Shown: positions 33,320-63,320 of the stretch, piece by piece | How the letters are laid out: every line of letters begins with the position of its first letter | How positions within the stretch are numbered: position 1 is the first letter of the stretch | Origin: Nocardioides sp. S5 | GTDB lineage: Bacteria; Actinomycetota; Actinomycetes; Propionibacteriales; Nocardioidaceae | Assembly (NCBI RefSeq): GCF_017310035.1 | Contig: NZ_CP022296.1 | Span: 3,534,001-3,598,000 of the forward strand | Reading direction: 5' to 3' | Length of the DNA stretch: 64,000 bases | Notes under the pieces: generated by a model | The model's input: only the letters and a program-made list of their open reading frames with translations | What the model was told of the DNA's origin: nothing | Database searches by the model: none | Program-made: the position numbers and the translations under genes

Positions 33320-33393
33320 CGTCGGCTTCCCTTCTGGTCAGTGAGGTCGGTGGGTGTCGATCGGTGCTCGAGGTGGGGCGGTCGGCGCATCGG

Positions 33394-37284: not shown

Positions 37285-37323
37285 GGGTGGACTTCCCTTC
37301 TGGGTTTCCTGACCCGGTGCGGA

Positions 37324-38390: not shown

Positions 38391-38407
38391 GGGCTTCACC
38401 ACCTCCA

Positions 38408-38419
38408 GTCGCCTATGTG
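38408..38419 (-). promoter_or_regulatory. Shared upstream motif, copy 4
   Basis: On the minus strand CACATAGGCGAC, immediately before the ribosome site of the 73-residue gene. It marks the head of the conjugation gene run 38390 to 30279. Confidence 0.4.
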
Positions 38420-38451
38420 TCGTGGGGCGGTGGGAGCGATCACGGTTGCGC

Positions 38452-47263: not shown

Positions 47264-50200
47264 TCAGCTCGCGAGCCAGCCGTGGGTACTGATGATGGTC
47301 TTCGTGCGCTCCGACAGTTCCATGGGGGCGTCGCCGTCGTCGGACCGGTTGCAGATCTCCTCGCGCAGGATCCGGTCGGCCTCGAGCTGGTCGCCCTCGG
47401 CCTTCATGACGTGCGCCAGGCACAGGCGGGTGCTCTCGCCGTCAGGGTCGGCCCGGTTGGCGACGAAGGCGGCGGAGCGGGCCTTGACCAGGTCGCCGGC
47501 GGCGAGAGCCTCGGTGACAACGATGAGGGCGACGTCGGCGATCCAGCCGGACGCCATGAGGTCGACCCGGTCGGGCTCGTTGACAAGCCAAGACCATCCC
47601 TCTTCACGCAGTTGGCTGAAGGGCTTCGCCTCGCCGACCAGCTCAAGCGCAGTGCAGAGGTCGGCGACGCCTTCCGCTCCGCCACGGGCCTGCCCGCGCT
47701 TGCGCAGCCGGAGGAAGAGCTGGAGATCGACCAGGAGACCGTCGTCGACCTGGTAGACGTTGACGCCGCGGAGCTTGGTGGCAGGGGCCTTGTCGGCGTG
47801 GGGCAGGTGGGGCTCTCCAGTGGTGGGGTTGGCGCCCAGCCACTCGCGGACGGTGTTGGTGTAGTCGCGCACCTTGCCCGGGGTGATCCCGAATGCCTCG
47901 CCGATTTCCTCGCGGGTGGCTCCGTGCTTGCGGTGTATGGCCAGGTACGCGAGCAGCTCGGTGAAGTAGGGCTTGCGCTTGGCCAGCGCCTTGCCGTGGG
48001 TGCGCGCTGTGACCGGGCCGAGCAGGCTGAGCCGTGGACGCTCGCAGTTGGTCGAGAACCAGTCGGCGATGTCTCGGTCGAGAGTGGGGTCGCTCTGTTC
48101 GACCTCGGCTCGGACGTGCTCGGGCACCTTCGGCGCCAGCGTCTCGAGGTCCTCCTGCACGATCGCGCTCTGCCGGATGTAGTCCTCGTCGTCGCCCTCC
48201 AGGAGGGAGGACAGCGGCTCGTCGACGGTGTCCGCGGGGGTGTTGCGCGGCAGGGTGTACTCGCGGCGCAGTGCCCCGGACTGGTCGGTGTAGGCCTCCC
48301 AGCCGTCGGTGGCGGTCTCGTCGACCGGAACAGGTACGTCCTCGGCGACCTCGCTCTGTGCGTAGACCAGTGCGCAGCCGCGGGCTTCGTCGCTGGTGAG
48401 GCCGACGGCGATGAGGTTGAGGCCGACGTGCTCGAGGACGACGCGGCCGGTGTTCGTCATGTGCAGAACGGCGCCCGGTGTGTTGGGTCGCTCGCCGGCA
48501 ACAACGATGGATGTGGCGGACTGCCCGACGTGGTCGTTGACCAGCTGCAGCAGCTGCTCGAGGTCCTCGGGGTCTCCGGCAGCCGCGTCGAGCAACAGCA
48601 TGCGGGCGGGCCAGGTGTCGTCGTCGACGCTGCCGGTGCGCGCCGTGGACGCGTCGGTGTCGTGTCGCTTCGCCCGGTCGACCGTGGTGACGGCGGCCGC
48701 GAGGGCATCCGCGGTCGCGGGTGACCCGGCTGCTCCGGTCGGGTAGTAGCTGATCCGCTCGTCCATGCCGACGGCTTCCTCAGCCACGCCGATGCAGTCG
48801 ACCTGGACGCGGCGCGACCACGGGTTGACGGCGAGCTGCGCCGCGAGGTGGCGAGCGAAGTCCCGGCCGTAGGTCGGATCGCCGCTGATGGTGAGTGTGG
48901 ACAGCTCCTCGCAGTTGAGCAGCCACGTCTCCCCTGTGTCGCTCATGCCGATGGTGGCCAGGAGCGGGTAGGGCGGCTCGACATTCCCTGTGTCGGGGCC
49001 GAGCTCATCGACGGCGGTGTCCGTGCTGACGTGCCAGTGGGTCTGATCCGGGCTGCCCACCCAGGGCGCCGGGACTGCGGCCGGCGCGCTCAGGTGCAGG
49101 GTCAGCTTGCCGTGCGCGAACTCCACGGCAGCGAGCGGCGGCATCGTGGCGCCCTGCGCGCCGACGGCGGCCGCGAGGCGACGCAGCGCCTCGTCGGCGA
49201 ACTCCACGGTCGCCGCGGCCGCGGCACCGGTGGCGTTCAGGGTCATCTCGACCGGCGCGAGCTCCGGAGGCGGCGCGGCGATCGCGCGGCCGGGTGTCCG
49301 GTTCCGGTAGCCGGCGCGGCGGCGGGACCGCAGGGCCATGAGCAGCGCCCCGGACAGCAGGACGCCCCCGCCGGTCAGACCGGCGAGGACCCACGGCGCG
49401 TCGAGGATCGAGTCGTCAGCGTCGTCGACCTGGTCGACGTCGGCGGCCGGCGCCGCCGGCTCCTCGGCTTGGGGCGGCGCGTCGGGCACGGCCGTCTCGG
49501 GTACCTCGGGCACCTCAGGCTCGTGGGCGACCGGCGGCTCCTCCTCGGCCGGCGGGTCGACGGGCCGCTGGTCCTCGGGGCTGGCGGGCGTCTCGGGCTC
49601 GACGTCGCGCGGCTGCTGGTGTCGGGTGTCGTCGTGACTGCCCCCCTGCTCGGCGCCGGGGATGCTGAGCTTCCAGCCGACGTCGATGACGTCGGGGTCG
49701 GTCAGCTGGGCCCCGCCGGGCTGGGTGATGCCGGTGGAGGCCTGGTAGATCTCGGGCCAGCGGTCGGCGTCGCCGAGCTGCTCTTGGGCGATCTCGCTGA
49801 GGGTGTCGGTGGGCTGCACCGTGTAGTCGTGCGCCGGTGCCCCGCCGTTGACCGCGGGCAGTTTGAGTACCCAACCGGGCTCGAGGAAGCTCGGCTGCGC
49901 GCCGAGGAGGTCGCGGTTGAGCTCGACGAGCTCCTTGTAGCGGGCACCGTCGCCGAAGTGGTCGTCGGCGATCGACCACAGGCTCTCCCCCGGCTTCACA
50001 GCGTGGTCGACGGTCTTGCGCTGGCGCTCCTGCTTCGTCTCGACCTTGACGTCCTGCTGGGCGGGTGCCTGGTCGGCGGCACCGGCGTTGACATGTCCCA
50101 CCGTCACCGGCGCCCCGGCGGCCGTGGTGATCGTGGCTGTCTGGGCGGCGATGGGCGCGGCGATGAACAGCAGAGCGGCGAGGCCGATGAGGCCGCGTGC

Positions 50201-50524
50201 TGCAGCCTGCGGCCGGCCCAGGCCCGGCAGCCGGGGCGCCTGGACCTTGCGGAGCCGTGCGATGGCCTCCACGACCAGGCTCAGCGCCATGAAGGCCCAC
50301 GCGACCCAGCCGATCACCTTGAACAGGCCGAGGACGAGGGTGCCGTCGTCGGGCGCCATGAGCGCATTCTTGATGCCGTCCAGGGTCGGGACGTGGTCCG
50401 GGATTGGGCTGGCACTGATCGCGAGGAATAGTGCGGGCAGCCCGAGGACGATGCCGAGTACGGCGACCAAGGCTGCGAGGCCGGTGAGCCGCTGGCCCAG
50501 GGTGGGATGGGTGGGCGTGGTCAT
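47264..50524 (-). CDS. LysM-domain membrane protein with C-terminal BTAD/winged-helix-like region
   Basis: A 1086-residue protein. Three N-terminal membrane helices (about residues 12-34, 66-88, 108-130) precede two LysM repeats (VKPGESLWSIADDHFG near 177; VQPTDTLSEIAQEQLG near 235). A disordered Pro/Glu linker and another membrane helix (about 378-400) lead to a large cytoplasmic part that ends in a winged-helix segment (LLAYLAIHRKHGATREEIGEAFGITPGKVRDYTNTVREWLG, in pieces, near 875) and a TPR/BTAD-like end. It joins cell-wall binding with a transcription-regulator-like domain. It overlaps the TadG-like gene by 4 nt. Confidence 0.82.
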   Translation of the reverse strand: MTTPTHPTLGQRLTGLAALVAVLGIVLGLPALFLAISASPIPDHVPTLDGIKNALMAPDDGTLVLGLFKVIGWVAWAFMALSLVVEAIARLRKVQAPRLPGLGRPQAAARGLIGLAALLFIAAPIAAQTATITTAAGAPVTVGHVNAGAADQAPAQQDVKVETKQERQRKTVDHAVKPGESLWSIADDHFGDGARYKELVELNRDLLGAQPSFLEPGWVLKLPAVNGGAPAHDYTVQPTDTLSEIAQEQLGDADRWPEIYQASTGITQPGGAQLTDPDVIDVGWKLSIPGAEQGGSHDDTRHQQPRDVEPETPASPEDQRPVDPPAEEEPPVAHEPEVPEVPETAVPDAPPQAEEPAAPAADVDQVDDADDSILDAPWVLAGLTGGGVLLSGALLMALRSRRRAGYRNRTPGRAIAAPPPELAPVEMTLNATGAAAAATVEFADEALRRLAAAVGAQGATMPPLAAVEFAHGKLTLHLSAPAAVPAPWVGSPDQTHWHVSTDTAVDELGPDTGNVEPPYPLLATIGMSDTGETWLLNCEELSTLTISGDPTYGRDFARHLAAQLAVNPWSRRVQVDCIGVAEEAVGMDERISYYPTGAAGSPATADALAAAVTTVDRAKRHDTDASTARTGSVDDDTWPARMLLLDAAAGDPEDLEQLLQLVNDHVGQSATSIVVAGERPNTPGAVLHMTNTGRVVLEHVGLNLIAVGLTSDEARGCALVYAQSEVAEDVPVPVDETATDGWEAYTDQSGALRREYTLPRNTPADTVDEPLSSLLEGDDEDYIRQSAIVQEDLETLAPKVPEHVRAEVEQSDPTLDRDIADWFSTNCERPRLSLLGPVTARTHGKALAKRKPYFTELLAYLAIHRKHGATREEIGEAFGITPGKVRDYTNTVREWLGANPTTGEPHLPHADKAPATKLRGVNVYQVDDGLLVDLQLFLRLRKRGQARGGAEGVADLCTALELVGEAKPFSQLREEGWSWLVNEPDRVDLMASGWIADVALIVVTEALAAGDLVKARSAAFVANRADPDGESTRLCLAHVMKAEGDQLEADRILREEICNRSDDGDAPMELSERTKTIISTHGWLAS

Positions 50525-50973
50525 CTCTCGATGCCTCCTTCGGCGCGGATGAGCCGCGCGGACGCCTCCCCGGTGACCTGCATCGTGTCCAGGCCGATGA
50601 TCCCGAGGAACTTGCTGGTGTATGTGTCGGTGGTGGTGACAATCAGGGTGTCGCCGTCGACGACGCGGACGGTTCCCTCCACGCCGGCGGCGCGGAGATA
50701 GTCCATGGCGGCCGTCTTGGCGGCGGTGAGGTCGACGCGGAGGTCCTCGCCGCGGACTGCGGTCGAGCCCTGAACCTCCTGGGCGCCGGTGCGGGCGGCC
50801 TGGGCGGCAGCGCTGCGGGCTTGCTGCTGGGTGTGGACCTTGCCGCCGAGGTCGACGGCCATCCCGACGAGGATGATCATCGCCAGTGCTGCGGTAGCGA
50901 ACCAGACGCTGATGGAGCCGCGCTCATCACGCGAGCGCCGCGTCGTGCGACTTCGGATGCGGGCGGTCATCAT
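50521..50973 (-). CDS. TadE/TadG-like pilus assembly protein
   Basis: A 150-residue protein with the basic leader RRSRDERGSISVWFATAA; the RG-S junction before a membrane helix (about residues 22-44) matches the pseudopilin-like cleavage region of TadE/TadG. The rest is an extracytoplasmic domain with a short beta segment (VRVVDGDTLIVTTTDTY). It starts at ATG 50973 (ATGATG), overlapping the preceding gene by 4 nt. A minor pilin or assembly role is inferred from the family pattern. Confidence 0.78.
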   Translation of the reverse strand: MMTARIRSRTTRRSRDERGSISVWFATAALAMIILVGMAVDLGGKVHTQQQARSAAAQAARTGAQEVQGSTAVRGEDLRVDLTAAKTAAMDYLRAAGVEGTVRVVDGDTLIVTTTDTYTSKFLGIIGLDTMQVTGEASARLIRAEGGIER

Positions 50974-51428
50974 CGGCGCTCCCGGTAGGCGTCGACGGGG
51001 CTGCTGGCGGTGGCGGTGATCGTCCGGGTGCCGGGCAGGCCGGGGATGCTCAGGTCCGCCACGTCGACCTTGCAGGTCACGGTGGCGGTGACCTGGGCGG
51101 TGGTTCCCAGCGGGGCGTTGAAGGCCGCAGCGTTGATCGTGATGTTGGTGGTCGTGCACTGCAGGCCCTGGTCGTGCAGGCTGCTGGTGGCCGCGGACTT
51201 GCCGGAGGTGATGGCCTCGCTCTGGGTCCGCTCGATGGAGGCCGCTCGCGCCGCCTCGTAGGCGGCTGCGTCCACGGACTGCTTGGCGATCTCCACGCGG
51301 CCGCCGAGGATGATCATCGCCACGAACAGGCCGAAGGCCGGGACGCCGATCGCGGCCTCAATGGCCACCGACCCGCGCTCGTCCCGGCGCCGGCGGCGTG
51401 CGCTGGTCCGCCTCGTCTGCCTGGTCAT
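50970..51428 (-). CDS. TadE-like minor pilin
   Basis: A 152-residue protein with leader RRRRDERGSVAIEAAIGVP, including the Glu at +5 after the Gly-Ser junction that is typical of TadE-type prepilins, one membrane helix (about 22-43) and a C-terminal extracytoplasmic domain with two cysteines (CTTTN and CKVDV). It overlaps both neighbours as ATGA. Processed by a prepilin peptidase that is not encoded in this window. Confidence 0.82.
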   Translation of the reverse strand: MTRQTRRTSARRRRRDERGSVAIEAAIGVPAFGLFVAMIILGGRVEIAKQSVDAAAYEAARAASIERTQSEAITSGKSAATSSLHDQGLQCTTTNITINAAAFNAPLGTTAQVTATVTCKVDVADLSIPGLPGTRTITATASSPVDAYRERR

Positions 51429-51820
51429 TCGGTGAGCCTCTCGACCGGGACGCTGGCGCTCTGGGTGACGGTCACGTGCCAGCCGGGGATGACGCTCATG
51501 GACTTGCCCGTGACGGTGATCGTGGCGGTGGTCGTGGTCCGTGATCCGGAGACGCTGGTGGAGGTCATCACGTCGGAGCCTCCGGCGTCGTGGAGGAACG
51601 TGTTCGCCGTGGCCACACCGGCGTCGCGGGTGCCGGTCTCGCTGCCTGCCTCGCGGGCGCCCTCCTGCGCGGCCGCGAGCGCTACCTGCTTCGCGTGGTA
51701 GTAAAGGGCGCCTTGGAGGCCGAGGAACATCAGCAGGAACAGCGCGGGCATCAGGAAGACCATCTGGATGGTCACCGACCCGCGCTCGTCCCGGCTGCGG
51801 CGGTGGAGGCTGGCGAACAT
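51425..51820 (-). CDS. TadE-like minor pilin
   Basis: A 131-residue protein beginning FASLHRRSRDERGSVTIQMVFLMP; the class III-like junction is followed by a membrane helix (about residues 18-40) and then ALYYHAKQVALAAAQEGAREAG, which matches TadE, and a beta-rich extracytoplasmic end. The +5 residue is Gln, not Glu. It overlaps the downstream TadE-like gene. With 50521, 50970 and 51827 it forms a group of four small proteins with the same leader motif. Confidence 0.82.
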   Translation of the reverse strand: MFASLHRRSRDERGSVTIQMVFLMPALFLLMFLGLQGALYYHAKQVALAAAQEGAREAGSETGTRDAGVATANTFLHDAGGSDVMTSTSVSGSRTTTTATITVTGKSMSVIPGWHVTVTQSASVPVERLTE

Positions 51821-51826
51821 GGCGGC

Positions 51827-52030
51827 CTACTTGATCTTGGCGGACTCGCTGGTCACGAAGAACTTGATGGCCGCGACGACGATGCCGACGATGACGATCA
51901 CGGCGCCGGCCCACAGGACCTGCTCGATCGTGACGGAGCCGCGCTCGTCGCGCTGCCGGGTGACGCGGTCCTCGAGGGAGGCGAGCGAGGTCAGCGCCGC
52001 CATCTGGAGGGCGATGAAGAGCTTCAACAT
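51827..52030 (-). CDS. Flp-like major pilin candidate
   Basis: A 67-residue protein. After the leader comes DERGSVTIEQVLWAGAVIVIVG, with cleavage expected after the Gly and a Glu at +5, then a single hydrophobic helix (about residues 38-58) and a short Lys-containing tail. Size and pattern fit the Flp pilin, the structural subunit of Tad pili, although the leader of about 30 residues is longer than usual. The gene stands between TadC and the TadE-like genes. A GGAAGGAAG ribosome site precedes the ATG. Confidence 0.75.
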   Translation of the reverse strand: MLKLFIALQMAALTSLASLEDRVTRQRDERGSVTIEQVLWAGAVIVIVGIVVAAIKFFVTSESAKIK

Positions 52031-52104
52031 CGGGGTTCTTCCTTCCTTGTTGTTCGGTTTGCGGTCTGGGTGACCCTGGTTCTTTGGGGTCGGTGTTAGG
52101 TCGG

Positions 52105-53022
52105 TCAGGTGGTGAAACGGAGCAGGGAGGGGGTGACGAGGATCGCCATGAAGACGATGCCGAGCAGGCTGGCGGGGATGTACATGCGCTCGGAGACGGC
52201 GTTGGCCTTCCCGAGTTCGGCGCTGAGCATCGCCGAGCGAAGGGCGGCGGCGCGGGCGCGGAGGTTGTTGTAGATCTGGGCGCCGTCCTGGCCGGACTGC
52301 TGCATGATGTCGGCGAGGTCGTCGAGCTCGGGGACGCCGAGGTCATCGGCTAGCCCGTGCAGGAAGTCCCAGGGGGCGCGGGTCATGTAGCGGGCGCGGC
52401 GCAGCTCGCTCTCGATTCGCTTGAACACCCACTTGTCGCCGACCTCGGCCGCGGAGCGCAGCGCCTGCTGGCCGCTGGAGCCGTCGCGGACTCCGGTGGC
52501 GACCATGTCGATGTAGGCGCCCAGGGCCCGGCTGAACTCGATGCGGGCCTTCTTGGCGTCGTCAGTGGCGTTGTAGTTGGGCATGAACCAGAACAGTGCG
52601 GCGAGCCCGAGCGACCCGAAGGTGGGGATCACGAACGGGAGCGGGAGCCCGATCAGCGCGAAGAACGCCGCGAACAGCGGCGGCATGGCCAGGCCGAGCA
52701 GCGCCCAAACGACCTTCTCGCCGTAGAACCTGGTCTCGCTGATCTGGAGGATGGCCAGGTCCTTGCGCGGTGTGTGTGCCCACGCTCCCCCGGGCAGGTT
52801 CTTGATCGCCCACACGCCGATCCGGTCGACGAACGATCCGGATTCGGTGCTCTCCTCGACGTCGAGCGGGCCGGCGCTGCGTCGGGGTACGACGTGGCCG
52901 GGCGAGAGCCGGTCCAGGGCGTCGGCGAGGTCGGGGTCGGACGGGGCCAGGCGCCACACGAGCAGGGCAACGGCGAGCCCGAGGAGGGTGCCGCTGGCGA
53001 GCGCGAGCTGGAGGCCCGTCAT
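52105..53022 (-). CDS. tadC: TadC-like pilus assembly membrane protein
   Basis: A 305-residue member of the type II secretion F (GspF/TadC) family: an N-terminal helix (about residues 5-24), a second helix pair (about 100-150), the cytoplasmic loop (AGALGAYIDMVATGVRDGSSGQQALRSAAE, in pieces, near 175) and a C-terminal helix (about 275-297). It works with TadB as the inner-membrane platform on which TadA drives pilus extension. ATG 53022 overlaps the TadB stop by 4 nt. Confidence 0.88.
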   Translation of the reverse strand: MTGLQLALASGTLLGLAVALLVWRLAPSDPDLADALDRLSPGHVVPRRSAGPLDVEESTESGSFVDRIGVWAIKNLPGGAWAHTPRKDLAILQISETRFYGEKVVWALLGLAMPPLFAAFFALIGLPLPFVIPTFGSLGLAALFWFMPNYNATDDAKKARIEFSRALGAYIDMVATGVRDGSSGQQALRSAAEVGDKWVFKRIESELRRARYMTRAPWDFLHGLADDLGVPELDDLADIMQQSGQDGAQIYNNLRARAAALRSAMLSAELGKANAVSERMYIPASLLGIVFMAILVTPSLLRFTT

Positions 53023-53948
53023 GCGAGTGCTCCTTCCTTCTCCCCGCGCGCCGCTCCGTGCGCCGCTCGGTGCGCGTTGCGGGCCTGGAGGTCGAGGAAG
53101 CGCGGGAGCGGCTTGGCTACCGCCATCCGGCGCATCCACAGCAGCGTGGCCACGTAGGCGGTCAGCAGGACGGCGAGGATGACCTGGCCGAGCGGGCTGC
53201 CGTACGGCTCGATGTAGTCGCCGGTGAGGGCGAGCATGCCCAGGACGCCGAGGGTGATCACGGTGACCGTGCGGGCGGTGGTGCGCGGCTTGGCCTGGTC
53301 GGCGGCGATCTGGCGGCGGGCGCGCACGTCGGCCGCGACGGTCTCGGCGAGGGCGTCCAGCGCCTTGGCCAGGCCGGCCTGCCCGCGACCGCTGGCGGCG
53401 AGGATCAGCTGGCTGGCCACCACGTCTCCGGTGGAGTCGTTGAGGTCCTCAGCGAAGGCGCGCAGCACGTCCTCGGTGGTGGCGGTGTTGTTCCAGAGCC
53501 GGGAGACCATCAGGCCGACCTCGCGCTCGATGGGCGCCGGCACCGACTGCAGCGACTTGATGAGCGCCGAGCGCAGCGACTGTCCGGCCGTCAGCTTGCC
53601 GGACAGTGACCGGGTCCACTCCTCGAGCGCCTCGAGCTTCTCGACGCTCGCGGCCGCCGGCGGGGGCGTGAGCAGCAGCGGGATGCCGACGATCGCGGCC
53701 GGGACGAGCACGATCGCGATCACCCAGCCGGTCAGCAGCGCGACCAGGAGGCCGGCGACAGCGCCGCCGATGACCAGCATCCGGGTGCGCGGGTTGAGCC
53801 GGGTGAACCAGCCACCCGCCCGGCCGAACGGGGTGACGGTCCGGGCGGGCCGCGGCGGCTTCGGAGGTGCGGGGATCAGCGCGTAGACCATGCCGATCAG
53901 GCCGATGACGATGAGCGCCCCGAAGACGGCGGGCAGGAAGGCGGTCAT
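53019..53948 (-). CDS. tadB: TadB-like pilus assembly membrane protein
   Basis: A 309-residue GspF/TadB-family protein with membrane helices at about 5-25, 57-92, 228-245 and 255-270 and the conserved cytoplasmic domain between (LEEWTRSLSGKLTAGQSLRSALI near 110; ASQLILAASGRGQAGLAKALDALAETV near 182). It overlaps TadA and TadC genes by 4 nt each. Platform protein of the Tad secretion machine. Confidence 0.9.
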   Translation of the reverse strand: MTAFLPAVFGALIVIGLIGMVYALIPAPPKPPRPARTVTPFGRAGGWFTRLNPRTRMLVIGGAVAGLLVALLTGWVIAIVLVPAAIVGIPLLLTPPPAAASVEKLEALEEWTRSLSGKLTAGQSLRSALIKSLQSVPAPIEREVGLMVSRLWNNTATTEDVLRAFAEDLNDSTGDVVASQLILAASGRGQAGLAKALDALAETVAADVRARRQIAADQAKPRTTARTVTVITLGVLGMLALTGDYIEPYGSPLGQVILAVLLTAYVATLLWMRRMAVAKPLPRFLDLQARNAHRAAHGAARGEKEGALA

Positions 53949-55624
53949 GAGATCGCCACCCCCGGGTTTGCCTGGGACTCGGCCTTGTACGCCTCGAGGT
54001 CGAACCCGTGGCGCGCGAGCTCCTGGGCGAGGAAGTTGTCGAGCTTCCCGGTCGCGACGGCCTGGCCGAGCTGGTTCGGGGCGAAGATCGGGGTGGTCGC
54101 ATACCCGCGGGCCGCGTCGATGCTGGGCTGGACGACCAGGACCTCCTCGACCCAGCGCTGCTTGCGGAAGGTGCCGTCGGGATTGGCGACGACCTCCGAG
54201 CGCAGGTACATCACGATGTCGATCGCGGCGGCCAGCTTGCTGATTGCCAACTCGCGGGTGACCTGCGGGCCCTTCTCCATGGCGCAGGAGACGAGCTTCT
54301 CGATCGTGTGCTCGGCACTGCGGGCATGGGTGGTGCTGATCGAGCCCGGCCCGGACTCCATGGCCTTGAGCATGTTCCAGACCTCCGGGCCGCGGACCTC
54401 ACCGACGATCTGGCGGGCGAGGTTGAACCGGAAGGAGTGGTGGATGGCCTCCTCGAGGCTGAACTCACCGGCCTGGCGGCCGTCGATGCCGACCTCGCCG
54501 GATCCGGGCCGGTGCTCCCACGCGTGGACGATCTTGTGCCGGTCGACCAGCTCGTGCAGGTGCAGCTCGAACTCGGTCTCGAAGGTGCCGATCATCTCCC
54601 AGGGCGGGATGCACGAGCACAGGGCCCGGACCCAAGTGGTCTTGCCGCTGCCTTGGACCCCGGAGACGACGATGCTCTTGCCCGCGCGCACGCAGGTTGC
54701 GACGAAGTCGGCCAAGACCGCGCCGCACGCCTTGCGGTCGTAGACCATCTCGTCCATCGACACCTCGCGCATCCCGTGGCGACGGATCACGACGGAGGTG
54801 TAGGCCATCACCCAGGAGCCGGCCGCGAGCCGCGCTCCCCCGGGCAGCCGGAGGTCCAGGTGCGGCCGGGCCTCGGTGAAGGGCCGGTTCTGCCGGGAGC
54901 CGAGGTCGGAGAGGAACTCGCGCAGCTCGTCCTCGGAGTCGGCGATCGGGGCGGCCTCCACAAGGGTGCCGTCGACCAGCTCCAGCCACACCGAGCAGAC
55001 CGGGCCGCGGGCAATTACGATGATGTTCTCGACGTCCTCGCGCTCGACCAGGGGCTGCAGGCGGCCCAGACCGAACAGGGCGGCGTGGAGGGCGGACTTG
55101 AGTGCCTTCTCGTGGTCCTTCGTCCACGGCGGACGGCCGGTCGAGACCAACGTCTCGGCCTCGGATTTGATGAGCTCCTCGATGACGTCGAGGCCCATCT
55201 GCTCGCGGTCCTCCTCAGTGACCCGACCACCTTCCTTGTCGAGCCGGGCGGTTAGTCGCGACGAGATCTCAGCGCGGTACTGCGCGATCAGCTCCCAGTC
55301 CAGCTCGACCTCGCCATCCGTGCCGCGGGTGTCTTGGTGCTCCTCCGGTGCGGGCGCCACAAGCGGGCGCAGGCTGAACTCCGAGCGGGCGCGGCCAGGC
55401 AGCTGGCCCTCGCCTTCGCTGGTCCAGGCGCCGGCGAAGATCGGCAGCGAGGTCGGGTCGTCGTCCTCGACGACCGGCGGGGGCGGCGGGGTGCCGTTGG
55501 AACCGCGTCCTCGGGCGAACGGCGAGGTCTGCTCACGGTTCGCGGCATGGCGGGCCTCAAGCCACTCGTCTGCGCGCAGCGGGTCGCGGCCGTTGGTCTC
55601 CGGGTGGTGTCCGTTGGTGCTCAT
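53945..55624 (-). CDS. tadA: TadA/CpaF-like secretion ATPase
   Basis: A 559-residue type II/IV secretion ATPase. After a disordered N-terminal 100 residues come the CpaF core elements: NIIVIARGP near 215, the RLPGGARLAA region near 258, Walker A VSGVQGSGKTTWVR near 325, the Asp/Glu-box GTFETEFELHL near 348, Walker B IVGEVRGPEVWN near 407, and STTHARSAEHTIEKL near 425. It powers pilus polymerisation together with TadB and TadC. ATG 55624 overlaps the TadZ stop by 4 nt. The first 100 residues are longer than usual for the family. Confidence 0.92.
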   Translation of the reverse strand: MSTNGHHPETNGRDPLRADEWLEARHAANREQTSPFARGRGSNGTPPPPPVVEDDDPTSLPIFAGAWTSEGEGQLPGRARSEFSLRPLVAPAPEEHQDTRGTDGEVELDWELIAQYRAEISSRLTARLDKEGGRVTEEDREQMGLDVIEELIKSEAETLVSTGRPPWTKDHEKALKSALHAALFGLGRLQPLVEREDVENIIVIARGPVCSVWLELVDGTLVEAAPIADSEDELREFLSDLGSRQNRPFTEARPHLDLRLPGGARLAAGSWVMAYTSVVIRRHGMREVSMDEMVYDRKACGAVLADFVATCVRAGKSIVVSGVQGSGKTTWVRALCSCIPPWEMIGTFETEFELHLHELVDRHKIVHAWEHRPGSGEVGIDGRQAGEFSLEEAIHHSFRFNLARQIVGEVRGPEVWNMLKAMESGPGSISTTHARSAEHTIEKLVSCAMEKGPQVTRELAISKLAAAIDIVMYLRSEVVANPDGTFRKQRWVEEVLVVQPSIDAARGYATTPIFAPNQLGQAVATGKLDNFLAQELARHGFDLEAYKAESQANPGVAIS

Positions 55625-56460
55625 GCGTGGCCTCCGTTCGTGGGAGCGAGGGCGGCCTGGTTGGCGCCGAGGATGGACTCGATTGCGGCGGTGCTGCCCC
55701 GGTAGCCGCGCCGCAGTCCGGAGGACTCGAACTTGCGTGGCTTGCGGGCGCCGTGGGAGTAGACCTCGGCCACCTCGGGCTCCCAGTCCACGGAGGCGAC
55801 CACGGGGATCTGGAGGGCCTTGGCGATGTGGCGTGCGGTGTAGGGCCGGACTCGGGCGCCGGTGGGAAGCGAGGGCCAGCGTCGCTCCTCGTCGACGAGG
55901 AATCCCCCGAGACGGGAGAGCCCACCGACCGCGGCGAACTGTGCCCGCAGGGTCTTGGCCCAGCTGGTGGCACCGGCCAGGGCCGGCAGCGAGCTGCGGG
56001 TGACGAGCAGGGTCAGGTCGGAGGCAGCGATCAGCGGCTGGGGCCAGCCCGCGAGGCCGAGTCGTCCGGCGTCGACGATGACGTCCTGGCCGTTGCGGTC
56101 GAGGGCGCGCAGTTGCTCGGTGAGCGGTTCCCACAGGGGCAGCAGGCTGGGGGCCTGCTCGTGGGCCCGGATGCCGGGTAGGAACCAAGCAGACCGCTCG
56201 GCCGGCGCCTCGGGGTCCAGCAGCAGCGTCTCCCGGGGCAGTGCGTCCGCCAGCGTTCCCTCGCGCAGGGAGAGAGCGAGGTTGATCAGGCCGCCGGTCG
56301 GCTCCTGGGCGCCCTGGAAGTAGCCAGCGAAGACCGAGGAGGATCCGGTCGGGTCTGCGTCGACCAGGAGCACGGGTCGGTGCCAGTTGAGGGTTAGCCC
56401 GAGCGCCGTGGTGGACACGCCGGGCGAACCGCTCGCGGAGGCCAGGACGATCACCGCCAT
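55621..56460 (-). CDS. TadZ/CpaE-like ParA-type protein, Walker A lysine missing
   Basis: A 279-residue ParA/MinD-like protein in the position of TadZ. The N-terminal loop IVLASASGSPGVSTTALGL shows the P-loop outline, but no Lys, and is followed by VLLVDADPTGSSS. TadZ proteins localise the Tad machine at a pole, and several of them have atypical P-loops; a weakened ATPase is therefore believable. It overlaps TadA by 4 nt and follows the SAF protein gene by 3 nt. Confidence 0.82.
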   Translation of the reverse strand: MAVIVLASASGSPGVSTTALGLTLNWHRPVLLVDADPTGSSSVFAGYFQGAQEPTGGLINLALSLREGTLADALPRETLLLDPEAPAERSAWFLPGIRAHEQAPSLLPLWEPLTEQLRALDRNGQDVIVDAGRLGLAGWPQPLIAASDLTLLVTRSSLPALAGATSWAKTLRAQFAAVGGLSRLGGFLVDEERRWPSLPTGARVRPYTARHIAKALQIPVVASVDWEPEVAEVYSHGARKPRKFESSGLRRGYRGSTAAIESILGANQAALAPTNGGHA

Positions 56461-56463
56461 GCC

Positions 56464-57144
56464 TCAGCGCTGCCGGGCGTCCAGGACGAGTGCGACCCGT
56501 CCGGTGGCAGCCCGGGCAGCCAGTTCGGCCGCCTCGGCTTCGGGCACCGCGACGTCGACGACGGTCTCCCCCGTCTCCTCGACCCGGTTAACACCAACGA
56601 CGGTGGCCTCGATGGTGACCGGCTCCCTGTCGGTGACCTCGCCCTGGTCGCCGGGCGTGGTGACGATCCGGACGACGTCGCCGCCGTAGAGCGGCTCTGA
56701 CGGCATCTGCGCGGGAGTAAGGCTGATGCCCACCAGGGACTCTCCCTCCCCCGGCACCAGGTTGTCGGTGACTGCCTGCGCGGTGAGCAGAGTGCCGGCC
56801 CACAGGTCGACGGCAGCGCGGCTGCCCTCGAGCTCGGCCTTCTGGCTGCCGGGGACCGGGGTCAACGCCGGGTCGACGCTGACCCGCACGACGGCGAGGT
56901 CGCCGGCCTCGATGGTCTCGCCACGCTTGATGTCGTTGCTGACGACCAGGACCTCTTGGGTGTCGTTAACCGAGGTGAACGCGAACGCGGTCCCCAGGCC
57001 GCCGGCAGCGACAAGAGCCGCGCAGAGTGCCAGGACCCAACGCCTGCGGCGGCGCCTCAGCCGTGGGAAATGGTTGTGGTCGGGAGGTGCCTTGATACTG
57101 GCGCCAACCTCGTCCCGTGCATGTTGAGCAGTGTTCATCGACAT
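56464..57144 (-). CDS. SAF-domain/CpaB (RcpC)-like pilus protein
   Basis: From ATG 57144 the product has 226 residues: an Arg-rich cytoplasmic start, one membrane helix (about 34-56), and an SAF domain (VLVVSNDIKRGETIEAGDLAVVRVSVDP near 72; LLTAQAVTDNLVPG near 122), then a second beta domain. CpaB/RcpC proteins are periplasmic or cell-wall stabilisers of the Flp pilus base. It is the first gene of the Tad operon; a copy of the shared motif and a large palindrome lie in its upstream region. A second ATG at 57138 is an alternative start. Confidence 0.85.
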   Translation of the reverse strand: MSMNTAQHARDEVGASIKAPPDHNHFPRLRRRRRRWVLALCAALVAAGGLGTAFAFTSVNDTQEVLVVSNDIKRGETIEAGDLAVVRVSVDPALTPVPGSQKAELEGSRAAVDLWAGTLLTAQAVTDNLVPGEGESLVGISLTPAQMPSEPLYGGDVVRIVTTPGDQGEVTDREPVTIEATVVGVNRVEETGETVVDVAVPEAEAAELAARAATGRVALVLDARQR

Positions 57145-57170
57145 GGATCCCCGAGTCCTCTCTTGTCTCA

Positions 57171-57182
57171 ATCACCTACGTG
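57171..57182 (-). promoter_or_regulatory. Shared upstream motif, copy 5
   Basis: On the minus strand this reads CACGTAGGTGAT directly after TTGA, 26 nt upstream of the first Tad gene. It ties the Tad operon to the same motif family as the relaxase and conjugation genes. Confidence 0.45.
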
Positions 57183-57471: not shown

Positions 57472-57912
57472 CTACCCGCGCCGCAGACGCTGCTGCCGGG
57501 CTTCCTGGAAGGCCGCGGCGACGACGTCGACTGTGTCCCCCAACCCACGCGCGAGACTCTCAAGCTGCCTGGCTGCTGGGAGTCGGGTCCAACGGCCTTG
57601 CTCCCAGGCGTAGTAGGTCGGCACAGCCACGTTGACGGCCGCAGCCAACTCGGGCACCGTCAGCCCCGCCTTCAAACGCAGTGCTCTGAGATCAGGAACC
57701 TCACCCTCCATGTGAATTAGACGAAGGGTCGGGATGTCGAGCGCTCTAGCAAGCTTGACCAAGAAGTCCGGCCGAGGAACCGACGCGCCCAGCTCCCAAC
57801 GAGATATGCGCTCCCCACCGGCGGCACCAACTAGACGCGCCAACTCATGCTGGGTCAGGCCCGCCTTCTCGCGAGCGGCGCGCAGCACTGAGGGGTCGAT
57901 TCCGGAAACCAT
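57472..57912 (-). CDS. Xre-family regulator with two HTH domains
   Basis: A 146-residue protein carrying two Cro/C1-type HTH domains in tandem: residues 8-64 (LRAAREKAGLTQHELARLVG, then ERISRWELG) and residues 75-130 (LRALRLKAGLTVPELAAAVNVAVPTYYAWEQG, in pieces). The duplication would allow binding to paired sites. It is divergent from the DUF4365/Argonaute pair and faces the Tad operon from upstream, so it could repress either. A copy of the shared motif lies 61 nt upstream of its start. Confidence 0.85.
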   Translation of the reverse strand: MVSGIDPSVLRAAREKAGLTQHELARLVGAAGGERISRWELGASVPRPDFLVKLARALDIPTLRLIHMEGEVPDLRALRLKAGLTVPELAAAVNVAVPTYYAWEQGRWTRLPAARQLESLARGLGDTVDVVAAAFQEARQQRLRRG

Positions 57913-57973
57913 CGCTGACAGACACTAGTCGGAGCAAGCGGGAGCCCCCGCCGCGAATCTCCCCACAAGTTGA

Positions 57974-57985
57974 GCGACCTACGTG
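57974..57985 (-). promoter_or_regulatory. Shared upstream motif, copy 6
   Basis: On the minus strand CACGTAGGTCGC, the most divergent copy, in the region between the Xre gene and the Argonaute operon. About 225 nt of the divergent region (57986-58209) otherwise show no gene I would accept. Confidence 0.35.
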
Positions 57986-58209
57986 ATACCCGCGCTGGGC
58001 AGAGGGCGCTGGGACACGCCGCTGACTCGAGGTGGAGCGTGACAACGACGATGCCTACCGGTCCTCTCGAAAGGCGTGGGCCTCATCAAATCCGGACGCC
58101 CGCAGGTAGCACCGCCTCTGAACCGCGCCTGCCTCGTACTGTCGGTGGCGACTCGTACCCTCAAAGAGCCGAGGCTCTCCAGATTCCTCGGCAGAAGCGA
58201 GGTGACCGG

Positions 58210-59538
58210 GTGGGAAGCGGTAAGCAGGTCAGCCGCAGCGCGCACATCGGCGATGCTGGTATTGCCCTTATCCACCAGCGGGTCAGCGCCATGGATCACG
58301 TCTGGCACGAGCGCACAGTCGACGCCGGGATCGATGGCACGATCGAGCTGCGCGACCCTGCGACGGGCGAAGTCAGCAACTGCCACCTCCAGGTGCAAAG
58401 CAAGGCCAGCGACAACGACTTCCCCGGTGAAACCGCCGACCGGTTCCACTACGACTGCGACGAGCGCGACCTGGACTACTGGATGAAGTCTTCAATGCCC
58501 GTCCTGCTGGTCTGCTCACACCCCAAGCGGGGCGAAGCCTGGTGGGCGCACATCCAGTCCTACTTCGCGGATCCCGCCCGTCGCGCCAGCGGACGTGTGG
58601 ACTTCAACAAGATCACCATGTCCCTTGAAGGGGACGTCTCCGACCGGCTGTTCGCGGTTGCGGATCCTCACGGCCGCGCGCACACGCCCGTCGCTGATCT
58701 GCGTGATGAAACCCTGGAGTCGAACCTGCTGCCTGTGACGATGCCCGACGTGTTCTGGGCATACGACGCCGCGGTCACACTCCCCCGGAAGGTCTACGAC
58801 CTACAGCGCGAGAGCAGCCTCGACATCCGAGACGACTTCACCCTCTTCGGCGGCCGGCTGCTGACGTGGAGCCCCGTCGAGGACACCGCGCTGGCGGGCG
58901 CGGTGAACGGTGACCCGACGATCGAGGCCACCGGCGAACTGCTCCACGGCAGCCCGGACAGCGAGCGAATACTGGTGCGCTTGCTCAACAACGCCTTCCG
59001 GCAAGACCTCCGCGATGACTGCGCCTTCCACGGCAAGCGCCACATGCTCTACTTCCGCGCCACCGACGACCTGTCGCAACGGAGCTGGAACACCAGCGGC
59101 ACCCATTGGCGCTCCGTCTTCAAGCCGCACGCCAAGAAGACCAACCCATTGCAGGTCAGCTACTACAAGCACGCCGGCCTCAAGTGGCAGTTCCTCAACC
59201 TCGACGACGAGTGGTTCTGCGCCCTGACGCCCGACTACTACTACTCGATCGACGGCTACCGCGAGTCACGGTTCACAGCCCAGTACCTGAGCGGCATCAA
59301 GCGGCTCGAACGTAACCCCGCTGTGCTCGGCGAGACCCGCATGTGGGCCGCCATCCTCGCCGGTCGCGAGGGCGGCCATGACAGCTTGTTCAGCCAGAAC
59401 GAGCGCATCCTCGACTTCGGCAAACTCGTCACCTTCGACACCGACCGCGGCATCGACGAGGCGAAGTGGAAGCGAGCGGCAGAGGCGTCGGACCCGACCG
59501 ATCCTCTGGCTGACGGGGAGCTGGCGGAGACGGCATGA
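58210..59538 (+). CDS. DUF4365 (DREN) nuclease-APAZ protein, partner of the short Argonaute
   Basis: From GTG 58210 (GAGGTGA ribosome site upstream) the product has 442 residues. The N-terminal 160 residues match DUF4365: AHIGDAGIALI, then MDHVWHERTVDAGIDGTIEL with candidate metal ligands D42 and E46, and the QxK element VQSKA (Q63, K65) of PD-(D/E)XK nucleases. The rest (about 165-442) corresponds in length and position to the APAZ domain that replaces the N and PAZ domains missing in short Argonautes. It overlaps the Argonaute gene by 4 nt. In SPARDA systems this nuclease is activated when the Argonaute recognises guide-directed target DNA. The frame is open upstream to 57970, but that part looks non-coding. 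Confidence 0.85.
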   Translation: MGSGKQVSRSAHIGDAGIALIHQRVSAMDHVWHERTVDAGIDGTIELRDPATGEVSNCHLQVQSKASDNDFPGETADRFHYDCDERDLDYWMKSSMPVLLVCSHPKRGEAWWAHIQSYFADPARRASGRVDFNKITMSLEGDVSDRLFAVADPHGRAHTPVADLRDETLESNLLPVTMPDVFWAYDAAVTLPRKVYDLQRESSLDIRDDFTLFGGRLLTWSPVEDTALAGAVNGDPTIEATGELLHGSPDSERILVRLLNNAFRQDLRDDCAFHGKRHMLYFRATDDLSQRSWNTSGTHWRSVFKPHAKKTNPLQVSYYKHAGLKWQFLNLDDEWFCALTPDYYYSIDGYRESRFTAQYLSGIKRLERNPAVLGETRMWAAILAGREGGHDSLFSQNERILDFGKLVTFDTDRGIDEAKWKRAAEASDPTDPLADGELAETA

Positions 59539-60965
59539 AACTCACGTTCATCGAAGAACCGGACCTGGAATTCGGCAACGGCAGCCGCCACATCGACCCA
59601 CGTAGCGGCATCAACAACTACGGTCCGGCCGACCTGAGCAATACGGGAGTTCGGACGATCCAGATCGGCATCGTCGGCACCAAGGCGGCCATCGGTGGGG
59701 TCAAGGCATGGCTCGACCGCTGCCGCGAACCAATTGCACCCAAAGAAAGCCCGCTATCGCACCTCTACTTGCCGTTTCCTGGGTTTCACACCAGCGTCGG
59801 CTTCCGCTCGACGATCATCTGGAACGGGCGGCTGGAGCGCACACTCGACAAACGAGCCCTGGAGAACATCGCAACGCTGAGTCCGCTGCAGGCTGTGCAG
59901 AAGGGCGTCGAACTGTACGAGGCCGAGCTGAGAACGCTCGATGAGGAACCCAACTGCGACGTGATCATCGTCTGCCGTCCCGACGATCTGCCGGAACGCG
60001 AGGAGCCGAAGACCAACCCTGACCGACCGTGGGAGCAACCAAAAGCTGCGTCTATCGGCTTCGACTTCCACGAACTGCTGAAGGCACGCTCGCTGAGCGG
60101 TAGTCGTCCCATCCAAATTATCCGGCGCGAGACCTGGGACCCGACCTACAAGCCGAAGGGCCGCGACAGGCGACGCCAGCAGGACGAGGCAACCAAGGCC
60201 TGGAACCTGCACACGGCGCTGTACTACAAGGCCGGCGGCGTGCCATGGCGGATGACCCGCCATGTCCGGGACCTCACGACCTGCTACGTCGGCGTCGCCT
60301 TCTACCGGAGCACCGACAACGAAACACTGCAGACGAGCGTGGCGCAGGTTTTCAACGAGCGCGGCGACGGCGTGATCGTCCGTGGCACCCAGGCCACTCA
60401 GTCGAAGGACGACCGACAGCCACACCTCACCGGCGACGACGCCAAGGACCTCCTTGAGCAGTCGCTGGCCCGTTACCGCATCGAGCACAAGACGGCACCC
60501 GCACGCGTCATGCTGCACAAGACCTCTTCGTTCACGCCTGAAGAGTTGGAGGGCTTCCGGGCTGCCGCCGAGGCGGAGCGCCTGGCCATGCTCGAACTCG
60601 TCTGGATCCCACGCGAGGACTCCCCCCGGCTGTTTCGGCAAGGCGAGCAGACAACCCTACGAGGCACGCTCCTGTCGCTCACTGACACCCGGCACCTGCT
60701 CTACACCCGTGGGAGCGTTCCGTTCTACCGGACTTACCCAGGGATGTACGTGCCGTCGGCACTCCCCTTCCGCCTTGTCGAAGTGCAGTCGAGCGCGGCC
60801 GAGATCGCGACTGAGCTGCTCGCGCTCTCCAAGATGAACTGGAACGCCACCCAACTCGACGGACGGGTGCCCATCACGCTGCGCACAGCTGACTCGACCG
60901 GCCGGATCCTGAAGCACCTCGGCCCGAACGAACGCCCGGCGCCGCGATACGCCTACTACATGTGA
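59535..60965 (+). CDS. Short prokaryotic Argonaute (MID-PIWI)
   Basis: A 476-residue protein lacking N and PAZ domains. The MID domain (about residues 140-240) has FDFHELLKARSL and IQIIRRETW. The PIWI domain (about 245-476) shows YVGVAFYRS, QVFNERGDGVIVRG, ARVMLHKTSSFTPEELEGF and the very typical ending LALSKMNWNATQLDGRVPITLR ... YAYYM. The catalytic Asp/Glu tetrad is not recognisable (GVAFY where an Asp is needed), as in all short Argonautes, so it should bind guide and target without cutting. With the DUF4365-APAZ gene it forms a SPARDA-type abortive defence pair. Confidence 0.9.
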   Translation: MKLTFIEEPDLEFGNGSRHIDPRSGINNYGPADLSNTGVRTIQIGIVGTKAAIGGVKAWLDRCREPIAPKESPLSHLYLPFPGFHTSVGFRSTIIWNGRLERTLDKRALENIATLSPLQAVQKGVELYEAELRTLDEEPNCDVIIVCRPDDLPEREEPKTNPDRPWEQPKAASIGFDFHELLKARSLSGSRPIQIIRRETWDPTYKPKGRDRRRQQDEATKAWNLHTALYYKAGGVPWRMTRHVRDLTTCYVGVAFYRSTDNETLQTSVAQVFNERGDGVIVRGTQATQSKDDRQPHLTGDDAKDLLEQSLARYRIEHKTAPARVMLHKTSSFTPEELEGFRAAAEAERLAMLELVWIPREDSPRLFRQGEQTTLRGTLLSLTDTRHLLYTRGSVPFYRTYPGMYVPSALPFRLVEVQSSAAEIATELLALSKMNWNATQLDGRVPITLRTADSTGRILKHLGPNERPAPRYAYYM

Positions 60966-61155: not shown

Positions 61156-61776
61156 TCACTGGGGCTTGTCGTCAGCGCGACGGGGACGCGTCGCCAGGCC
61201 GTCGAAGATCAACTCGCTGATCGACGCAGACAAGCGCACTGCGTCTGCGGACGGGTCGTCAGATGGCCCCTCCACCGCCGCAGTGAGGCCGGCGACCGTG
61301 ATGGCACCGAAGACGCTCAAGGCCACGGCGCCCGGGTTGGGGACCTGGCGTAGCGACCCATCAGCCACGCCGTCGGCCAACAACTGCTCGATCGGTTCGT
61401 AGAACGCAGCCCGCAATGCCAGCGCCAGCTCGGGCAGCCGAGTCGCGCGCCCAAGGTCGCCGACCAGTGCCCGACACAGGAACGGGTGCTCGAGCATTAC
61501 CCCCAGCTGCGCCACGACAGCGGCCTCGAGTCGAGTCCGCGCATCCTCGGCGCTCAAGACGGCAACGCCGACGGCGCCGGCGATCATGTCCAGCAGGTCG
61601 CTGAGGAGAAACTCCAGCACGGCGTTCTTGCCGTCGAGGTGGTAGTAGATCGTGGCCTTCGGGATGCCGGTGGCCTCGGCGATGTCTTCGATCTTGGTGC
61701 CGTCCAGACCGCGCTCCGCGATCAGCTCGGCCGCGCCGTACAACTGGCTGGCCAGCTTCGCCGGCAGCTTCCTCAT
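61156..61776 (-). CDS. TetR family regulator (next to MMPL remnant and P450)
   Basis: A 206-residue TetR protein from ATG 61776. The HTH is LYGAAELIAERGLDGTKIEDIAEATGIPKATIYYHLDGK (read in pieces, residues 12-50), followed by an all-helical ligand domain with two hydrophobic segments. It is convergent with the Argonaute gene and divergent from the MMPL remnant and the P450. The palindrome at 61844-61860, 67 nt upstream, is its likely operator. Confidence 0.88.
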   Translation of the reverse strand: MRKLPAKLASQLYGAAELIAERGLDGTKIEDIAEATGIPKATIYYHLDGKNAVLEFLLSDLLDMIAGAVGVAVLSAEDARTRLEAAVVAQLGVMLEHPFLCRALVGDLGRATRLPELALALRAAFYEPIEQLLADGVADGSLRQVPNPGAVALSVFGAITVAGLTAAVEGPSDDPSADAVRLSASISELIFDGLATRPRRADDKPQ

Positions 61777-61843
61777 CACGCACCTCTGTTCTCTGCCGCC
61801 CGCCGGTGCGGCCGTGCGGTATCGACGTCGTGCACATCGTATG

Positions 61844-61860
61844 TTGTACTGGAAGTACAA
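61844..61860. promoter_or_regulatory. TetR operator candidate
   Basis: TTGTACT-GGA-AGTACAA is a perfect 7-bp inverted repeat with a 3-nt spacer, the right size for a TetR dimer, upstream of the TetR gene and in the former promoter of the MMPL gene. Confidence 0.65.
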
Positions 61861-61894
61861 ACCAGTGATCTAGACGATCGGTTGTGTTCAGTGA

Positions 61895-62119
61895 GTCGAG
61901 ACGATCGGGCCGGGACTGCTGTTCTCACCGGTCGAGGCGCTCGCCCAGACCGGCTTCGCTGTCGCGGCCGGGCTCCTTCTCGACACGTTCGTCGTGCGCA
62001 CTCTCGTCGTCCCGGCTTGCGCCGCGCTGTTCGAGGAGGGCAGCTGGTGGCCACACCCCCGGCCGGCCCACGCCCCGGCAGCCGTAGAGCCAGCCCCAAC
62101 ACCTCCCAGGCACCCGTGA
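61895..62119 (+). pseudogene. MMPL transporter, C-terminal remnant
   Basis: An open frame without a start reads ALAQTGFAVAAGLLLDTFVVRT, then LVVPACAALFEEGSWWPHP: the last membrane helix and Trp-Trp-Pro end of MMPL/RND lipid transporters. A TGA stands at 61892-61894 just before it. The remaining 90 percent or more of the gene has been lost between the operator and this point. The remnant ends 23 nt before the P450 gene. Confidence 0.8.
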
Positions 62120-62141
62120 ACCCGATGACCAGAGAGAAGTC

Positions 62142-63320
62142 ATGACTAGCCAGCAGCTCACCTACAGCCCGTTCGACCCCACAGTGATGGAGGATCCCTA
62201 CCCCGTCTATCGGCAGCTTCGCGATCACGCCCCGGCGCACTGGTCGCCGGAGGCAAGCACCTGGGTGCTCAGCAGGCACGAGGACGTCTCGGCGGCCCTG
62301 GCCGACCCAACGACGTACTCCTCGGCGTCCGGCATCTTCCCCACCCCACCCGGCGTGGACATGACCGAGCTGTTCCTGCCCATGCTCATCATGAGCGACC
62401 CACCCCGGCACACGCAGCTGCGCCAACTCGTCAGCAAGGCCTTTACCCCGCGTCGCATCGCAGGGCTCGAAGGACACATCCAGACCCTTGTCGACGACCT
62501 CCTGGACACAACCCCCGAGACCGGCCCCTGGGACTTCGTCTCTGAGTTCTCCGGACCTCTGCCCGCGATCGTGATCGCCGACATGCTCGGCGTGCCGCGT
62601 GAAGACCGCGACCGCTTTCGGACCTGGTCCACCACCCTGATCCAGTCCAACCCGGTGCGAGGCGAATTCGGCGCCGGGCTGGACGCCGCTGCAGCCCTCT
62701 ACGAGTACTTCTCCGCATTCCTCGCTGACCGACGCGCGCACCCACAAGACGACCTCATGACAGCGCTCGTCCAAGCCGAGGTGGACGGCGAGCACCTCAC
62801 CGAGGAAGAACTTCTCGGGTTCTGCCTGCTGCTGCTCGTCGCCGGGCACGAAACGACGACCAACCTGCTGTCCAACAGCGCTGTCATCCTCGCCCAACAC
62901 CCTGAGGACCGACGCGCTCTGGCCGACGAGCCCGAACTCGTGCCAGCAGCCGTCGAAGAGCTGCTTCGCTACGACTCACCGGTCCAGGGCCTGGCACGCA
63001 CCCTGACCCGACAGGTCGATCTGCACGGTCAGGCTATGGCAGCCGGCGACACCGTGCTGCTGCTCTTCGGCTCAGCCAACCGCGACGACCACGCGTTTCC
63101 CGACGCAGACCACTTCGACATCCACCGTGGCCCCGAACGACAAGTCGCGTTCGGGCGCGGCATCCACTTCTGTCTCGGCGCATCCCTGGCCCGCCTCGAA
63201 GCACGCATCGCTCTGCGAGCACTCCTCACCCGCCGCCGTGACTGGGATGTCGACATCGACTCCGCGGTCCGACTCCGCTCAGGCCCGATCCGCGGGTTCG
63301 CATCGCTACCCATTCAGTAG
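62142..63320 (+). CDS. Cytochrome P450
   Basis: A 392-residue bacterial class I P450. The heme-binding signature FGRGIHFCLGASLA has its Cys at 344; the I-helix AGHETT is at 234-239, with E273 and R276 forming the ExxR pair. The pattern (NRDDHAFPDADHFDIHR) fits soluble actinobacterial P450s that oxidise lipids, terpenes or xenobiotics; the substrate cannot be inferred. No ferredoxin or reductase gene follows. The gene lost its MMPL neighbour and probably depends on the TetR-controlled promoter upstream. Confidence 0.93.
   Translation: MTSQQLTYSPFDPTVMEDPYPVYRQLRDHAPAHWSPEASTWVLSRHEDVSAALADPTTYSSASGIFPTPPGVDMTELFLPMLIMSDPPRHTQLRQLVSKAFTPRRIAGLEGHIQTLVDDLLDTTPETGPWDFVSEFSGPLPAIVIADMLGVPREDRDRFRTWSTTLIQSNPVRGEFGAGLDAAAALYEYFSAFLADRRAHPQDDLMTALVQAEVDGEHLTEEELLGFCLLLLVAGHETTTNLLSNSAVILAQHPEDRRALADEPELVPAAVEELLRYDSPVQGLARTLTRQVDLHGQAMAAGDTVLLLFGSANRDDHAFPDADHFDIHRGPERQVAFGRGIHFCLGASLARLEARIALRALLTRRRDWDVDIDSAVRLRSGPIRGFASLPIQ

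Follow-up and report, generated by a model that had tools for sequence, protein, structure and literature searches.

Short prokaryotic Argonaute, DNase-associated (SPARDA) systems pair a short prokaryotic Argonaute (pAgo) with a DREN-APAZ nuclease, and two of them lie closest to the locus described here. NbaSPARDA of Novosphingopyxis baekryungensis defends against plasmids and phages, and RNA-guided, DNA-triggered collateral nuclease action with D41, Q60 and K62 as catalytic residues has been shown for it (PMC12205087). TmuRE-Ago of Thermocrispum municipale DSM 44069, which has Q62/K64 as active-site pair, degrades DNA in vitro without sequence match once guide RNA and target DNA are provided, and prefers RNA guides with a 5'-OH and a 5'-U (PMC10810196). 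Here, we analyzed a stretch of 64,000 nucleotides from Nocardioides sp. S5 (contig NZ_CP022296.1, bases 3534001-3598000; from here on the window). The element it contains lies in a single 4.75-Mb contig and is chromosomal. Very probably, this relative of MobF plasmids carries an intact SPARDA operon whose products would sense DNA by RNA guides and then likely cleave DNA indiscriminately; activity, guide type, cell death and benefit are predicted from the sequence.

The preliminary description of this DNA had placed a DUF4365-APAZ gene at 58210-59538 and an Argonaute gene at 59535-60965 and had read them as a SPARDA-type pair. The coordinates proved exact, the DUF4365, nuclease-APAZ and pAgo_I models matched, and solved protein chains matched nearly full length. 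By homology, the gene pair 58210-60965 is a SPARDA-type operon of a DREN-APAZ nuclease and a short Argonaute. Both genes lie on the same strand with the effector first and overlap by 4 nt; the effector reading frame sits within a longer open frame, and its GTG start is backed by homologues. The effector matched Pfam DUF4365 (E=1.4e-24), the PADLOC nuclease-APAZ model (E=1e-139, residues 4-431) and solved chains (E=3.7e-40; 3.9e-64 with a profile), among them 9qbp_A, 9qbq_A and 9jsb_D. The latter carries the label DREN-APAZ, and the effector profile aligns to its residues 2-438, nearly full length. By sequence, APAZ occupies the C-terminal half, and this part alone also aligns to 9qbl_A and 9om4_A.

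For the Argonaute, the PADLOC pAgo_I model matched (E=4e-171), while Pfam Piwi gave E=1.2e-05 and 25.1 bits, below the Pfam gathering score of 28.9. Among solved chains, 9qbp_B (E=1.7e-94), 9qbl_B and 9jsb_A were matched, and the protein consists of MID and PIWI only, as its 476 aa can be aligned over almost their whole length to short pAgo chains (471-507 aa). The chains of 9qbp and 9qbl/9qbq/9qcc, each a DUF4365 protein with an Argonaute as compared by database names, were the best PDB matches of both proteins. The active Argonaute 1yvu_A was matched weakly (5e-4). F256 within the motif GVAFYR, present in 18 of 18 aligned sequences, appears to stand where active PIWI domains have an aspartate. 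Among 7995 scored candidates each, at least 3004 matches to the Argonaute and at least 480 to the effector were obtained. A full DREN-APAZ partner was assigned at 42 of 78 GTDB loci by script and at 43 by eye; the difference is locus L026, which was scored 'none' by the position rule of the script, yet shows a full DREN-APAZ match.

The comparison with the two described systems points to how the pair may work. NbaSPARDA D41/Q60/K62 correspond to D42, Q63 and K65 of the window effector (alignment mapped by eye) and TmuRE Q62/K64 to Q63/K65, and D42, Q63 and K65 are invariant in 24 of 24 aligned sequences. TmuRE-Ago shares the gene order, DUF4365-APAZ followed by short pAgo, and 61% of Argonaute (290/476) and 52% of DREN-APAZ residues (228/437); its locus, L019, was equated with the genes of the published system on strain and gene order. 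With this identity, the pair likely acts by collateral DNA cleavage that is guided by RNA and triggered by DNA: it would load small RNA guides, the guide-loaded complex would recognise matching invading DNA, and recognition would likely switch the DREN domain to indiscriminate DNA cleavage, which would kill or stall the cell. The surroundings differ, as in the 13.8 kb of L019 no match to 14 window proteins was found beyond a weak integrase one (1e-4).

Likewise, both chains of NbaSPARDA are homologous to the window proteins nearly full length. The phosphate-binding K187 and K240 of NbaAgo are K183 and K232 of the window Argonaute and its base-reading Q224 and N232 are Q216 and N224, all in 18 of 18 aligned sequences (PMC12205087). 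W201, which holds A1 in NbaAgo, is replaced by R197, again in 18 of 18. As the 5'-end pocket is unlike that of NbaAgo in this and further contacts, the guide preference is likely nearer to that of TmuRE-Ago, that is, 5'-OH, 5'-U RNA. Among the filament and tetramer contacts of NbaSPARDA, E13 is D15 in the window and E45 is E46.

Some observations weigh against this reading. Further guide contacts of NbaAgo are changed in the window (R183 to H179, S447 to A438 and N451 to D442), the position of H179 being arginine in 13 of the 18 aligned sequences. The NbaSPARDA tetramer residues N17 and R20 are replaced by A19 and H22, so that filament-driven activation of a DREN tetramer may differ in detail here; PMC12205087 leaves open whether the filament is conserved in other SPARDAs. 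No promoter or terminator consensus, including sigma-70, was found in 57800-61200. The divergent gap presumably harbors the promoter, and a ribosome-binding-like GGTGA was seen by eye directly upstream of 58210. Finally, the uncorrected dN/dS of 0.08-0.29 versus the window copy (L007, L008, L009 and L013) is based on few changes, e.g. 8 synonymous and 7 nonsynonymous in the L007 pAgo. A search of 56000-64000 for RNA genes returned none at E up to 0.1, and repeats in 57600-61200 were short and chance-like.

We next to this operon found the Tad pilus genes that the preliminary description had noted as neighbors, at about 47.3-57.2 kb, and the MobF, coupling-protein and type IV secretion system (T4SS) genes lie further left (Table 1). 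MobF, T4SS, Tad and helix-turn-helix (HTH) genes are shared with the MobF plasmids pA-N39 (Pimelobacter simplex) and pCHL (Nocardioides sp. QY071), and relaxase, coupling-protein and T4SS genes follow the same order. The window matches pA-N39 over about 45 kb (74-90% identical) and pCHL over about 41 kb (76-93% identical), in conserved order in both cases. pA-N39 coordinates 44343 to 110939 and on to 7842 run parallel to the element from 3.8 kb before the window through 57.9 kb, and cargo interrupts these matched blocks along a span of about 62 kb. Both relatives are free 111-kb plasmids, and a plasmid search did not find the window Argonaute on them. They possess a ParA arm and a Rep region, whereas the window element has neither at the SPARDA locus; we therefore speak of a relative of pA-N39 and pCHL rather than a plasmid. 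No ParA match above 36% was found in the host genome, and its sole close Rep belongs to a second element at 1.305 Mb. The preliminary description had taken the element to be transferred itself. It does carry conjugation and Tad genes, and 98-100% identical SPARDA DNA points to horizontal spread; transfer by conjugation is presumed. MOB-suite classes the two nearest plasmids, pA-N39 and pCHL, as non-mobilizable despite the annotated mobF gene. No tRNA was found in the window or within 60 kb on either side.

The second element of the host genome (1300510-1377011; L117-L119, L149-L151) is of the same family, free of SPARDA, equipped with Rep and 82-89% identical to the SPARDA-bearing one over the main blocks. 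A tRNA-Met (1298263-1298337) lies about 2.2 kb from the start of its matched DNA.

Table 1 Features of the SPARDA-bearing element in the window (positions in the window)
Feature	Position	Strand	Remarks
MobF (TrwC) relaxase-helicase-primase	2519..8440	+	1973 aa
TraD/TraG-type coupling protein	10902..12422	-	
T4SS arm	30145..39609	-	TrbL/VirB6-like protein (Pfam match); SCO6880-type protein and ATP-binding proteins (from synteny to pA-N39)
Tad-type pilus operon and LysM gene	47264..57171	-	Element backbone; TadA/CpaF ATPase 53945-55642, SAF protein 56464-57171
Two-HTH regulator gene	57472..57912	-	Element backbone; two HTH stretches; divergent from SPARDA
Divergent gap	57913..58209	+	297 nt; presumed SPARDA promoter and ribosome-binding site
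DREN(DUF4365)-APAZ effector gene	58210..59538	+	GTG start, 442 aa; from the open reading frame list and homology
Effector domains			Predicted PD-(D/E)XK-type nuclease, about residues 1-146; APAZ, about 165-442; limits by homology to NbaSPARDA (PMC12205087)
Stretch coding for D42, Q63, K65	58333..58404	+	Predicted catalytic residues
Short prokaryotic Argonaute (MID-PIWI) gene	59535..60965	+	ATG start, 476 aa
Right edge of DNA common to the N. terrigena, N. rubriscoriae and N. terrae copies	61018		53 nt past the Argonaute stop
Neighboring cargo	61156..63320		TetR regulator 61156-61860 (-), cytochrome P450 62142-63320 (+)

Further cargo is spread over the element. Positions 20307-30145, where pA-N39 has its heavy-metal cassette, encode an acyl-CoA catabolic set (AMP-binding enzyme, acyl-CoA dehydrogenase, SDR, thiolase and a metallo-beta-lactamase fold). 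The preceding 16515-20307, a tyrosine recombinase and a 730-aa protein without Pfam match, has no pCHL counterpart and matches the Paenarthrobacter aurescens TC1 plasmid CP000475.1 at 87.8% DNA identity; it is likely a mobile module of its own. A 1034-aa UvrD-like helicase (39849-42953) with partial GajB and RTasHel PADLOC matches (best 6e-32) may be further defence cargo, and the three reading frames after it had no PADLOC match. About 4-5.4 kb before the window (L003:14624-16009), a 461-aa protein matches best to residues 264-630 of the 1172-aa BrxC model and is likely encoded by a gene fragment.

The two-HTH gene had been described as a regulator divergent from the operon. Its orientation and its two HTH stretches are as described, and it belongs to the element backbone, standing beside quite different cargo elsewhere. 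The HTH gene start was present in 20 of 20 other element copies examined over the adjacent 3-8 kb, of which 18 lack a SPARDA match of at least 250 nt; L007, which is not among these 20, has the HTH gene as well. In pA-N39 and pCHL, the same gene precedes a ribbon-helix-helix or hypothetical gene and then ParA. The 16 nt upstream of the HTH start (57913-57928) are similar across copies, and beyond them the cargo diverges. Some SPARDA-less copies share more of the gap with the window, about 44 bases in G091, somewhat more in G137 and G040, and about 115 in G038. As the HTH start is common to the copies and the cargo beyond it differs, SPARDA is, judged from these alignments, exchangeable cargo, one of those found at a variable site next to the HTH gene. 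A regulator dedicated to keeping SPARDA silent might be suspected from the divergent arrangement with 297 nt in between. It is quite improbable, since the gene occurs in pA-N39, pCHL and all 20 other copies, and N. terrae has an intact SPARDA, yet an HTH gene match limited to window positions 57726-57912; we rejected this role. The Tad arm was matched in 65 of 196 genomes of the genus, in some distantly. Distant HTH relatives occur on Rhodococcus and Gordonia plasmids, where no neighbor in the two regions examined has a Tad annotation.

DNA of this SPARDA lineage was found in ten genomes. It is 98-100% identical to the window in five further genomes, four of named Nocardioides species and one of a Nocardioides sp., and intact in five altogether: the window host, N. 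terrigena, N. rubriscoriae, N. sp. IC4_145 and N. terrae. The N. alcanivorans copy covers the full length but has two single-base gaps, both within C runs, which may be sequencing errors, and we count it as doubtful rather than broken. A full T4SS arm accompanies SPARDA in four of these six genomes; in N. alcanivorans and N. terrae, no T4SS arm and relaxase fragments only were found. The TetR-P450 cargo adjoins SPARDA in the window, L010 and L013 and also stands beside the remnants in G020 and G071, whereas it does not adjoin SPARDA in N. terrigena and N. rubriscoriae.

The other four genomes retain remnants. Janibacter terrae keeps the 3' part with an IS3 element, joined to the T4SS arm; G071 keeps the last 141 nt of the operon with the TetR-P450 flank, with no match to the T4SS or Tad arm; G165 keeps the 5' 535 nt, in which the frame is broken and N replaces D42; and G020 has a deletion of 58246-61161. 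At least two remnants occupy this same position next to the HTH gene. Because all break points differ, the four remnants are likely separate events, and since those in G165 and G020 were missed by the protein search and came up only beside the HTH gene, the number of losses is likely underestimated. From these alignments, SPARDA was apparently gained once in the lineage, then spread between species and was lost repeatedly.

More distant operons occur in other surroundings. Contig JAUJOD010000004.1 of a Nocardioidaceae metagenome-assembled genome holds two different SPARDA operons (L012, L028). Like the window operon, the first lies near a SAF/Tad gene set (about 4.5 kb away), but its DNA is only 68% alike. 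In Miniimonas arenae (L014) and Actinoplanes sp. RD1 (L025), MobF relaxase genes lie within 10 kb of SPARDA. A phage origin of the operon was rejected: 50,697 phage records gave no match to the Argonaute, and the best full-length ones of 11 Argonaute loci in IMG/VR are 38-39% identical.

What the operon does for its carrier may be read in several ways. The preliminary description had suggested competition between elements, in which SPARDA serves the element against rival plasmids or elements by killing cells that take up the rival, so that the lineage of the resident element is protected. Carriage beside relaxase, T4SS and Tad genes fits this, as do the action of NbaSPARDA against plasmids as well as phages (PMC12205087) and the related Argonautes on 96 plasmid records, of which 49 are classed as conjugative; the latter also mean that there is precedent for carriage by conjugative elements. 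The distribution of the elements speaks against competition. We surveyed the T4SS arm in the 196-genome genus sample, where 46 genomes matched, and used the 37 copies, from 32 genomes, that reach about 9 kb or more; two first-look candidates were scored per genome, so second copies may be missed. A second full-length copy, 86-87% identical, was present in two of three SPARDA-intact genomes (G000, the window host, and G115) versus three of 29 others. N. terrigena, outside the sample, has a partial second T4SS set (65-73% identical), and such elements are also present in G047 and G196, whose Argonautes are more distant (55% and 62% identity). As SPARDA genomes co-hold related elements, SPARDA does not exclude close relatives, at least once these are integrated; action against incoming or multicopy DNA remains compatible with such co-residence. 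Given also that four genomes keep mere remnants and that the operon could just as well guard its host from phages, we consider competition unlikely. An ordinary host-protecting, mainly anti-phage system that rides on the element, with nothing specific gained by the latter, has about an even chance of being correct. Sequence cannot separate it from competition, but the family is found in many genomes (see the 42 of 78 GTDB loci with a full partner), 63 of the 78 loci match none of the 14 window proteins probed (many contigs being shorter than the flanks sought), and with 12 of 196 genus genomes showing any match to SPARDA in the protein search, the distribution is patchy, as usual for defence genes.

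The remnants with different break points in G165, G020, G071 and Janibacter terrae may also suggest an operon in decay, a burden whose self-activation is costly and which the lineage is about to lose. This appears rather improbable, as five copies, that of the window among them, have uninterrupted reading frames, and uncorrected dN/dS stays under 0.3. One could further imagine that SPARDA, which sits Rep-less at the place of the partition arm of the free plasmids, is compatible only with an integrated, non-replicating state and that its self-toxicity is escaped by breakage; if so, SPARDA would be a lock penalising the element's own replicating relatives. Rep was indeed found in none of five element copies with SPARDA or its scars versus 19 of 32 other full-length copies (Fisher p=0.02). 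This contrast is weak evidence, because the five copies are one lineage, some contigs are short (G115 is split over two) and the copy coordinates were transferred by hand, and we regard the idea as highly improbable. A general rule that SPARDA cannot live on plasmids was rejected, as annotated plasmid records from Haematobacter, Mesorhizobium, Bradyrhizobium and Rhizobium include relatives with a DUF4365 partner.

Taken together, the shared site and the repeated loss are what deserves following up. In one SPARDA lineage whose copies are intact in five genomes, doubtful in one and broken in four, plus genomes with a related SPARDA-free element, nature has provided an experiment by which cost, self-targeting and element exclusion by short Argonautes become testable in soil actinobacteria. 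Among the matches listed by a full-text literature search, none dealt, by title or start of abstract, with SPARDA in Nocardioides elements. The operon adds one more SPARDA to those described, close to the TmuRE-Ago system studied in vitro, and its repeated loss is the unusual part.

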